A stretch of 64,000 nt of DNA, from positions 1 to 64,000 of the IMG/VR virus record IMGVR_UViG_3300047472_000155. The stretch is one strand, 5' to 3'. The notes under the pieces were generated by a model, which ran no database searches, was not told where the DNA came from, and saw only the letters and a program-made list of their open reading frames with translations. Within the stretch, counting starts at the first letter, position 1; each line of letters begins with the position of its first letter. Source of the stretch: a virus. Positions 4,823 to 54,780 of this stretch are shown one piece after another. Made by a program: the position numbers and the translations under genes.

Positions 4823-7800
4823 TTATCCCTTCCAACCAAGCTTCTTTAATCCATTTACCAATCTAGTAGTAACTAAGTCAGCACCTTTTTCATCTCCCGT
4901 TACACTACCAATATTGATGTTAATGTTGCTTCCACCACTATTAGTAACCACAGAAGGAGAAATTGATGAAACAAGTTTTCCCATGTTTGGCATGAATTTG
5001 TTTTGAATGTTTGTAGAAGGAGACATTAACTCATCTTGCAAAGCTAATATCACTTGTTCGTTTGCATCAGTATTCATCATCTGATCCATAAGTTTAGTTA
5101 ATTTATTTCCACCTCCACCAACAACACCACCTTTATGAAGAACTTGAAGACCGCTCTTATCATACCAATGACCATCAGCTTTTTTAGACAATCCAATACT
5201 TGGACCCAACTTTTCGTTTAAGGCAACAAGTTCTTTTTGTCTAGCGGCAGTTGCAGTATGCCATTCTGCTGCGTTTGCTTTCATTTGTGCTACAACAGAA
5301 GCATAGCTTGACGATGTAGTTGTTGAACCGCTTGTAGAAGTAGTAGTACCTCCATACAACGCGTTTCCACTTGAATCAAGCCAAACACCAGCGCTTGTTT
5401 TTGTAGCTCCTATACTTGAACCAAGAGCTTCATTAGCGGCTTCAAGATTTTTCTTTTCTTCCGCAGTTGCACTAGCCCATTTTGCAGAGTTTGCTTGCAT
5501 TTCTGTAATAATATCTGATTCGCTTCTAATGAGTTTAAGGTTTTCAACTACCTTTTGAAGTTGAGTTGTAACATTATCATATATTGATTGACCAACAAGC
5601 GGAAGATTTGCATCAAACCATCCTTTTAAAGTTCCAAGTTCGCTTGAAATTCCTTGAATGTTGCCTTTCTCAATTTCTGCTTTAAGGTTAGACCAATGAG
5701 TTTCATCATCTGCAATGTCTTTGAAGTATTTGTTAGCACTATCTTTATAATCTTCAATGATGTCTTTCATATCATCGTAAGATTTCCCAGTTATAGTTAC
5801 CATTTGTTGAGATGTAGCATCCCAAAGTTCAACACTCATTGTCCAAGCTTCTTTATCCGCTTCTGCTTTTTCTTCTAAATAAGTTTTTTGATCTTCTAAA
5901 TCTTGTTTTTGAGCATCGGTAGAATGGTCATCTTGAAGTTTAGCAATTTCCTTGTCCGCAGCATCTCTTTGTTCGATAAGGTCTTTGAGTTGAGCCTTGC
6001 CCTCTTTGGAATCATCTAAAGATAAACGATTGATTTTATCTTGTAACTCTTGACGACTTTGCGTCTTTGTGTTCAAGCTATCTTGATATTCAGCTTCTGA
6101 CTTGTCAAATTCAAGTTGTTTGATCTTGCTTTCAATTATCTTTTGATCTGCCTTAAGCTTTTCATCAATTCTATCCATTTCTTTTTCATGAGCTTTTTCA
6201 AGTGCATCATCTTGTTCATCAATCGCATCAATGATTGCATCCTTTTGTTTCTCATACATATCCTTAAGAAGTTCGATGGCATTGTCTGCAATATTGTCAT
6301 TGAAATCTTTTAATGCATCATTGGATTGTTTAATAGCAGCTTCAATATCCCACCATTCAAGTTTCAATGCAGCAAGTTTTTGATTGTATTCTTCAACTTT
6401 TTCAATACTCAATTTGTGACTCTTTTCATTGTCTTTGAGAATTTTACGAATTGCTACAGCCTCTTCTTCCTTTTGTTTTTGAAGAGTTTCGTTTATTTTA
6501 ATTTGTTTTATCAACTCAGCTCTATACTCTTTTGATTCTTCATCATAAGTACTCAATCTTGCAGATGATAATGCCAATTCAGCGTTTGTGCTTTCTATTC
6601 CCTTTTCATACTTATATAACGAATTATCAGCTAAATCTCCATTTAATGCATCTATTTGATCTTGCACATCTCTATATGATTGACTAAGTTCTAACGTTTT
6701 TTGAGTCAAGTCATCTGACTGAATCCCCGAATTTCTAAGATATTCAGCCTCTTCGTGCATAAGTTTTTGTTTAACTTTTAACTGCATAATTTGTTCATTT
6801 GTTTCTTTGGCATTTTTAGCAGTGTAATTAGCAGAATTTGGATCAAGTCTTGCTGCTCTATATTGAGATTGGCTTATGGCTTCATCTTTGTTTGCCAACT
6901 GATTTTCATATTGTGCCATATAACTATCAACAACGTTTCTAGCGCTAGTGAATAGTGCACTATCAACCTCAACTAATTGATCCTCAACTGATTTCTTCGC
7001 ACTATCAATGTCCTTTGAGGAAGGAGCATTTACAACTGTCGTTGTAGTACCTGTTGTTGTGGAACCTGTTTTTGTACTTGCTGAACTACTTGTAGCGTTT
7101 CCTCCTTGAGCATAACCAATAACTTTTGGAACATAGTTAAGAGTTTCGCTTTTAAAGATGTTGTCTCCAACACCACGGTTTAATTTTGCCGTATCAGCTT
7201 TTGCATTTTTTAATACGTCCCAATCTTTGCTTCCTGTAGTCTTCATAGCCCAATCGACATAACCAGGACCAGCATTATATGCCGCTAAAGCAAGATCATA
7301 AGAACCGTATTTATCATACAATTGACTAAGATATTTTGCTCCACCGTTTGCTGATTGTTGAGGATCATAAACATTTGATACACCTAATCCCTTAGCGGTT
7401 CCTGGCATTAATTGCATCAATCCTGCGGCTCCCGCACCACTCTTAGCATTAGGATTATAACTTGACTCAGCCCATGCAACAGCGTCTAATATAGATGTGT
7501 CAACACCGTTATTTGCCGCCGCTTCACTTATAATCTTTTTAATGTCTCCAGTAGACTTAGCACCAGTTCCTCCAGTATAATTTGTACTAGCAAAAGTACT
7601 TCCTCCAGATGTTGTCGTTGTTGTTGCTGCAACTAATTTGGATGGATCAGCCTTTGCTTCAAGAAGCAATGTTTTCTTTTTCTCTAAAAGTTTTACTTCT
7701 TCTGCTACCGAAGCTCTATATTCTTTAGAAGATTTAGCGTATTTACTTTGTTGTGCATGTACCTTGTCAAGAGCAGCATCAACATCATTGATAGCTCTTT

Positions 7801-28033: not shown

Positions 28034-28101
28034 TTAATTTCACCTTTTCCTCATTTAAATTTTTACTCTATGTATTCCTCAGTGTGCCTGAATGCACTTT
28101 A

Positions 28102-28158
28102 AGACTAAAAAATAAACCTTCCACAAGCAGCCTTTGTGAAAAGCTTATTTTTTAGTCT
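28102..28158 (-). ncRNA. Structured 5' leader of the late operon
   Basis: AGACTAAAAAATAA (28102-28115) pairs perfectly with TTATTTTTTAGTCT (28145-28158), with a smaller CACAA/TTTGTG-type hairpin inside. A second small hairpin (GTGC/GCAC) lies at about 28084-28097. All of this falls between the promoter and the first gene, so it would form in the 5' UTR. Confidence 0.55.
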
Positions 28159-28181
28159 ATCGTCTTCTTCACTACAATCAT

Positions 28182-28264: not shown

Positions 28265-28412
28265 ATAAAAAAATTGCGTCTTATACTCTGTTTACATTTT
28301 TACGTAGGTGAGAAATTTGTACTACTGTCACTTTTTTGGACATTTGTACAAATCTACGTTGTATTCGTTCTCACGCGAACTACTCAATGTAAACATAATA
28401 TAAGACGCAATT
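28265..28412 (-). ncRNA. Candidate structured RNA with pseudoknot and terminator-like 3' end
   Basis: A 14-bp outer helix (28272-28285 with 28399-28412) and a 9-bp helix (TGTTTACAT 28289-28297 with 28387-28395) enclose GTGAGAA (28308-28314) paired with TTCTCAC (28368-28374), and ACGTAG (28302-28307) paired with CTACGT (28354-28359). Those two helices cross. TTTGTAC (28316-28322) pairs with GTACAAA (28346-28352) within. On the minus strand the outer helix is followed by seven T, like a terminator, downstream of the tRNA-Asp gene. No protein frame fits. Confidence 0.65.
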
Positions 28413-28413
28413 C

Positions 28414-28442
28414 ATGTATTGACTTTGGTAGAGTCAATACAT
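28414..28442 (-). other. Perfect 11-bp hairpin between tRNA-Asp and the RNA candidate
   Basis: ATGTATTGACT / AGTCAATACAT with a 7-base loop. It separates the tRNA-Asp 3' end from the structured RNA and may be a processing signal. Confidence 0.5.
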
Positions 28443-28456
28443 ATGTTATTTCCCAA

Positions 28457-28528
28457 CGGTTCTTAGGAGAATCGAACTCCTATTTCTGCACTGACAATGC
28501 AGCGTAATAGCCACTATACCAAAGAACC
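28457..28528 (-). tRNA. tRNA-Asp(GTC)
   Basis: 72 nt cloverleaf: acceptor GGTTCTT/AAGAACC, anticodon stem CTGCA/TGCAG with loop TTGTCAG, T-arm GTTCGATTC. No encoded CCA. It is the last tRNA of the minus-strand cluster in transcription order. Confidence 0.9.
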
Positions 28529-28533
28529 ATATA

Positions 28534-28611: not shown

Positions 28612-28726
28612 AGCGGAAACTAGGAATCGAACCTAGATCATGTTTGGTATCGTGTAAATGGGTGCTGCCGCTACCCACTATACCACGCCCCTGGAGGGGG
28701 ATGTCCTGCCATTAGACGATTTCCGC
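28612..28726 (-). tRNA. tRNA-Gly-like gene with a large insertion (chimera or degenerate)
   Basis: 115 nt. The ends match perfectly (GCGGAAA/TTTCCGC), with a normal D-arm (GTCTAATGGCAGGAC) and T-arm (GTTCGATTC). The anticodon region reads CATCCCC-CTCCA-GGGGCGTG, without a normal 7-base loop. About 45 extra bases with their own stems (GTGGGT/ACCCAT, GGTAT/ATACC) follow. It looks like a fusion of a Gly(TCC) 5' half with the remains of another tRNA. An intact Gly(TCC) gene exists at 34219-34290. Confidence 0.5.
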
Positions 28727-54419: not shown

Positions 54420-54780
54420 CATGACATATATTATGTATATTCTTACAATATAATACATATGATATACTCACTATGATATTATGTATATGTATATATCTAT
54501 ATGTATATATCTATGTGTTAATATCATATTGATAGTAATGATATGATACATACAACATGTATCTATCTATGTGATACTATCTATATGATAATATGTATGT
54601 GTATGTATCTATATGTTACTATCTACATATACATATCATATTGTTATTATCATAATGTTAGTATCTATGTGGATATATGACGATACTTGCAACATGCGAG
54701 CAATATGATATCGACCTAGCATATAGCAACGTGATATATATAGTACATACATATGAGCACTCACACATATAAGATAAAGT
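54420..54780. repeat. Degenerate tandem TATCTATATG-type repeats
   Basis: Variants of TATCTATRTG joined by TTAATATCAT/GTATGTGTATG words fill about 250 bp. They resemble a decayed microsatellite or an AT-rich unwinding region. Confidence 0.6.

Follow-up and report, generated by a model that had tools for sequence, protein, structure and literature searches.

A predicted terminator-like element with a structured head behind the last gene of a phage tRNA array

At the end of an operon an intrinsic terminator presents a GC-containing stem that runs straight into a U tract, and in its standard form the stem is short and the loop small. For RNAs encoded beside phage tRNA genes, the stable RNAs of the T4 tRNA cluster offer a comparison. 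In Bacillota the 3' maturation cut of a tRNA whose gene lacks CCA is expected at the discriminator base, and in HDV ribozymes the helix strands follow the order P1, P2, P3, P3', P1', P2'. A tRNA trailer with a role of its own is 3'ETS-leuZ of E. coli and Salmonella, for which a sponge role and RNase E cleavage 15 nt beyond the tRNA are reported (PMC5222698). The ROOL and GOLLD RNAs are described as ornate phage RNAs that often lie near tRNA islands and contain pseudoknots (PMC12286853). Theta ribozymes are likewise tRNA-adjacent in phages and lie at tRNA 3' ends, rarely with CCA, the tRNA-associated class being defined as cleaving no more than 5 nt from the 3' end of the tRNA (PMC10879173).

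How does the locus described here compare with these systems? It is a 148-nt element behind a tRNA array in a 64,000-nucleotide stretch of viral DNA (hereafter the window), which is a portion of a 166,838-bp virus record, IMGVR_UViG_3300047472_000155. With an intrinsic terminator it shares the GC-containing stem leading straight into a U tract and the position where an operon ends, whereas its stem is interrupted and 26 bp long and carries an 87-nt structured head. Like 3'ETS-leuZ it would form a trailer after the last tRNA that could potentially be cut free; in contrast, it is phage-encoded and far more structured, and it is not known to have a target sRNA or to involve Hfq or RNase E. It is much smaller than the ROOL and GOLLD RNAs (GOLLD often more than 800 nt, ROOL with stems P1-P19), and it has no Rfam match. 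The nested strand order and the phage tRNA neighbourhood recall theta ribozymes, from which it differs in lacking a J4/2 catalytic C and in not lying at the tRNA 3' end (PMC10879173). Literature searches found no published description of the element, which is a real and unusual sequence feature of predicted terminator-like form.

Genomic setting and architecture

The window's terminase shows 53% identity, across 94% of its length, with the terminase of Brevibacillus phage Sundance. Its counterpart in the closest relative, the 170,562-bp IMG/VR contig L005/L004, is 91% identical. ARAGORN finds 22 tRNA genes in the window, every one on the minus strand; an additional Rfam tRNA match (28612-28726, minus strand, 39.5 bits) was missed by ARAGORN, spans 115 nt and represents either one tRNA that carries an insertion or a pair of tRNA-like segments that overlap. 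The array ends with a tRNA-Asp gene that, as read from the sequence, encodes no CCA, and a spacer of 43 nt containing a hairpin (H0) separates it from the element. H0 is near-perfect and on the plus strand scored as terminator-like with 13 pairs, facing opposite to the tRNA direction. Within the element interval no minus-strand open reading frame of at least 40 aa was found. The promoter of the next operon drives a small ORF of 72 aa, whose YonK-like label is taken over from the Sundance annotation, followed by a 422-aa protein that we take to be a metallophosphoesterase, a name given without a family call; the terminase lies further downstream. The features are listed in transcriptional order, with RNA position 1 corresponding to window position 28412 on the minus strand.

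28456-28529, minus: tRNA-Asp (GTC), final tRNA of the array (ARAGORN; Rfam tRNA 62.2 bits)
28414-28442, minus: H0, separate hairpin in the spacer between tRNA-Asp and element, 11 perfect pairs, loop CUACCAA, 1 nt from P1
28412 to 28265, minus: whole element, 141-base fold plus U run, 148 nt in all
28397-28412, minus: P1, 5' strand, RNA 1-16 (helix search)
28386-28395, minus: P2, 5' strand, RNA 18-27 (helix search)
28377-28380, minus: H1, alternative hairpin, 5' strand GUUC, RNA 33-36 (read from sequence)
28368-28374, minus: P3, 5' strand GUGAGAA, RNA 39-45 (helix search and chance test)
28367-28370, minus: H1, 3' strand GAAC, overlapping P3, RNA 43-46 (read from sequence)
28354-28359, minus: P4, 5' strand ACGUAG, crossing P3, RNA 54-59 (helix search)
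28346-28353, minus: P5, 5' strand AUUUGUAC, RNA 60-67 (helix search)
28315-28322, minus: P5, 3' strand GUACAAAU, RNA 91-98 (helix search)
28308-28314, minus: P3, 3' strand UUCUCAC, forming the 7-nt bulge that separates P5 from P4, RNA 99-105 (helix search and chance test)
28302-28307, minus: P4, 3' strand CUACGU, RNA 106-111 (helix search)
28289-28298, minus: P2, 3' strand, RNA 115-124 (helix search)
28272-28287, minus: P1, 3' strand, at the base of the terminator-like stem, RNA 126-141 (helix search)
28267-28273, minus: U7 tract, RNA 140-146, its first two U pairing in the 16-bp P1
28182-28210, minus: promoter of the next operon, perfect TTGACA-17-TATAAT with TG before the -10 box (promoter scan)

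P1 comprises 16 bp, one of them G-U, with an A-U-rich base, and is separated by a single mismatched position (17/125) from the 10-bp P2; together they enclose the 87-nt head. The original prediction had described enclosing helices of 14 and 9 bp, crossing helices of 7 and 6 bp, a nested 7-bp hairpin and seven U behind the outer helix on the tRNA strand, and every one of these is present, P2 and the nested hairpin being one pair longer than stated. The 14-bp outer helix is P1 minus its two outer A-U pairs, so that seven U follow this form of the stem and five the 16-bp form. The U tract occurs on the tRNA strand only, the opposite end of the element reading CATG. Within the head P3 (7 bp) and P4 (6 bp) cross and P5 (8 bp) is nested; alternatively the head can be drawn as one 14-bp stem of P4 and P5 with the 7-nt bulge UUCUCAC on its 3' strand, and this bulge is exactly complementary to the upstream GUGAGAA (RNA 39-45).

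Folding energy, chance and the crossing helices

The minus strand of the element folds with -52.6 kcal/mol (z -8.7), an energy equalled by none of 200 shuffles, and the plus strand with -47.6 kcal/mol (z -8.0), the plus strand also folding well because the element is an inverted repeat. In a score for long stems closed by a U tract the element reaches 39.8, the window maximum, ahead of 32.8 for an overlapping register of its own and 26.8 for the best site elsewhere, and the best value over 20 block-shuffled windows was 34.6. A bulged 14-bp hairpin arose in one of 300 shuffles of the interior. The 7-nt bulge found a complete partner within RNA 28-53 in 13 of 20000 shuffles, and some 7-bp Watson-Crick helix joining unpaired segments, whichever it was, appeared in 270 of 20000, these shuffles permuting unpaired letters only and P3 having been picked after it was seen. 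The claim that such a density of helices is hard to explain by chance thus holds for P1, P2, P4 and P5, which are far from chance; for P3 the numbers support significance at about 0.001-0.01, after the fact. In a pattern search of the window, crossing cores of this type that lack P1 and P2 were common in AT-rich sequence, many scoring similarly, and the highest-scoring crossing-helix patterns cluster at 54452-54708 on the plus strand, perhaps a repeat-rich stretch.

Does the pseudoknot form? In a nested model most of P1, P2 and P5 pair with probabilities near 1, P3 with 0.1-0.96, P4 with about 0.03 and H1 with 0.016. Folds forced to contain P3 and P5 (-51.6) or P4, P5 and H1 (-50.2) lie close to the optimum of -52.6, all three being nested-model energies. 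The knot is therefore only a possibility, not favoured by the nested-model energies and without comparative support, and a discrete RNA is likewise only a possibility. The competing GTTC/GAAC hairpin that had been proposed does overlap P3 and would compete with it; its nested-model pair probability is the 0.016 given above for H1; an alternation between H1 and P3 is a possible reading of the model.

It could be imagined that this choice gates termination, the bulge either pairing with GUGAGAA in P3 or staying open while GUUC/GAAC forms, such that the state of the head would set whether P2 and P1 close in time to terminate. We regard a gate of this kind as improbable; if it were true, a factor produced in the course of infection could control whether transcription of the tRNA operon continues into the terminase operon.

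Relatives and the slot behind the tRNA array

Searches for homologues, which the original prediction had named as checks, were without success. At gathering score cmscan reports no Rfam family besides tRNAs, with no covariance-model match to GOLLD, ROOL or other RNA families, and at lax E-values it adds chance matches only; sub-threshold matches to plant miRNAs were AT-rich long hairpins far under the cut-offs and were discarded. Distant-mode blastn against 50,697 phage records returned AT-rich pieces of 32-39 bases in 14 records (best E 0.3) and no homologue, a plasmid search gave no match to the element, and its own 166,838-bp record holds no second copy. In 398 Bacilli-class genomes six matches of 19-38 bases and no homologue were found; four of the six were inspected and resemble ordinary sequence, and the sole one checked for an inverted partner (L238) has none. 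The core 14-mer TTCTCACCTACGTA occurs at 82 loci in viral contigs, with both partner strands at none and one strand at two of them. A covariance model built from two identical rows, and hence representing a single sequence, gave as its best match among 80 of 216 loci a 71-nt hairpin (L126, E 0.085), and in six whole virus records it recovered the element itself on both strands and a chance match at E 0.32. In a sequence-independent search of the collected loci for a long stem with a U tract, the strongest hit among relatives was a Tn3-type miniature (L177), the other high scorers being only partly inspected one by one. Two viral scans aimed at the slot between tRNA and promoter yielded 11 and 6 loci, none of which added another distinct close relative. 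The element is an apparent orphan with no relative among the phages, plasmids, viral contigs and Bacilli genomes searched, and comparative folding thus found no homologue in which pairing could be followed.

L004, the closest relative, shares the gene order but lacks the whole element: its tRNA-Asp (5472-5545) is followed directly by the AT-rich sequence located downstream of the element in the window, then by a like promoter and an 82%-identical small ORF. H0 and the element, about 190 nt, are missing, and no hairpin occupies the slot; as the comparison is unpolarised, it fits terminator loss in L004 as well as gain in the window. Two distinct relatives carry plain terminators there, L099 a short hairpin with six or more T at about 7120-7155 (small ORF about 47% identical; L259 is a 99%-identical copy with the same short terminator) and L098 a short intrinsic terminator, its hairpin likewise trailed by six or more T, at about 722-755 (small ORF 61% identical). 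A promoter like the window's is found in L004, L098 and L099, and in the latter two the terminator precedes it. By inspection L102 and L008 have no comparable structure in the slot; a 6-bp site flagged by the scan in L008 sits in apparent coding sequence and was judged not credible. Among 25 tRNA-array rows, which include overlapping loci from the same contigs such as L004 and L097, a long U-tract-closed stem ends only one, the window's own, and only 7 of the 23 other rows show, within 450 nt, a short site resembling a terminator. Given these rows, L004 without a hairpin and L008 without a credible one, a terminator at the array end seems not to be required.

A separate observation concerns the interval between the promoter and the small ORF, where a leader hairpin of more than 20 bp follows right after the promoter (28099-28160, minus strand). 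L004 retains it (about 5652-5710), with both strands altered so that an A-U pair is replaced by G-C, the window's AGACTAAAAAATAA/TTATTTTTTAGTCT becoming AGACTAAGAAATAA/TTATTTCTTAGTCT, and its apparent comparative support is better than that of the element.

Terminator, trailer or insertion

On balance we lean towards the view that the tRNA operon has its 3' end in the element, an oversized intrinsic terminator whose trailer is possibly released as a stable RNA. Polymerase leaving tRNA-Asp would make H0 and next the head as a P4/P5 hairpin, whereupon P2 and P1 could zip, and P1 closing just ahead of the U tract would stop the polymerase, acting as an intrinsic terminator of unusual length. Such termination would shield the strong promoter about 60 nt downstream, and with it the operon of small ORF, phosphoesterase and terminase, from tRNA transcription. 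As tRNA-Asp lacks CCA, its 3' processing should free a structured trailer of about 185 nt, and the 26-bp interrupted stem, by resisting exonucleases, might let it persist as a stable RNA. By pairing the bulge with GUGAGAA, P3 could hold the head in the form of a compact pseudoknot, the alternative being GUUC/GAAC; any use of the head is only a possibility. The terminator account is favoured because strand, place and U tract are right and plain terminators stand in the same slot in two distinct relatives; the better fold of the minus strand agrees with it, as does the location of the interval, which is flanked by the final tRNA and a perfect promoter. The stable stem of P1 and P2 with its immediate U-rich tract on the transcribed strand is that of an intrinsic terminator, but 87 nt lie within P2 in place of a small loop on a short stem, and a consensus terminator scan did not call the element, whose head exceeds the scan's loop limit; the A-U-rich base of P1 also speaks against a terminator. 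For these reasons we call it terminator-like and not a standard member of the class, and termination alone leaves the structured head unexplained.

The main rival is a miniature mobile element, in which the 26-bp arms would serve as terminal inverted repeats for a transposase acting in trans, insertion having possibly duplicated a 4-bp target, AATT, and the U tract would be incidental. The arms do form long terminal inverted repeats, which extend over 27 positions and contain a single mismatch (17/125) and one G-U. L004 lacks the element, and AATT stands at both of its ends, the L004 junction reading AATTTTTAT; AATT is palindromic, however, so that a duplication is indistinguishable from part of the repeat, and the gap in L004 takes in H0 and exceeds the repeat-bounded piece. 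That such insertions occur in related elements is illustrated by the look-alike L177 (6369-6596, P. alvei pPAV141), a 228-bp long-stem miniature flanked on both sides by TAAAA, of which a single copy stands at the empty site in P. agilis (L176). Its ends, GGGGTA...TACCCC, are presumably those of the Tn3 family, it has partial matches, mainly of the right end, in 49 plasmid records, and it lies just upstream of an HU-like gene on a phage-like plasmid. Kinship of our element with it was dropped once it proved to be a Tn3 miniature, and it shows what hazard such insertions pose. A miniature element would be expected in further copies; none were found in the virus's own record, the phages, the plasmids or the 398 Bacilli-class genomes, at all 21 loci with the arm motif in viral contigs a good inverted partner is absent (best 13 of 18 bases), and the matched bulge of the head is unexpected in such an element. 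We therefore consider this origin unlikely, while giving it more weight than the remaining alternatives.

Somewhat less probable still is a dedicated phage sRNA that acts in trans through its pseudoknotted head, the stem and U tract merely forming its 3' end. The dense, partly crossing structure and the shuffle tests of the bulge pairing speak for it, as does the placement of ornate RNAs next to phage tRNA islands, described for GOLLD and ROOL (PMC12286853); against it stand the lack of any homologue or covariation found, of an own minus-strand promoter between tRNA-Asp and P1, and of any stretch in the 64 kb of the window that is complementary to either head loop over at least 11 nt, a search on the phage side. 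A self-cleaving HDV-like (theta) ribozyme has next to no likelihood and was rejected. The strand order P3, P4, P5, P5', P3', P4' does match that of HDV, the first helix has 7 bp, and the element adjoins a phage tRNA lacking CCA. Yet 0 nt separate RNA 105 from 106, which leaves no J4/2 and no catalytic C, and the would-be cleavage site (helix start 28374, tRNA-Asp end 28456) is 81 nt and not at most 5 nt from the tRNA. A simplified theta-ribozyme descriptor found no match in the element, and cmscan gave no HDV family at E up to 10. Applied to 227 tRNAs from 16 sources, the descriptor matched twice with the catalytic C and 2, 1 and 1 times with A, G and T as controls; these matches are ascribed to chance as they show no excess over the mutated bases.

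What would the preferred reading of an operon end mean? If the element is only a terminator, then an elaborate and partly crossing fold can occur in one lineage without conservation, which would be a warning against calling RNA families from a single sequence. If instead the trailer is a stable RNA, the tRNA-trailer RNAs would have a compact counterpart in a phage, and ROOL, GOLLD and the theta ribozymes would be joined by one more ornate RNA in the neighbourhood of phage tRNA islands.
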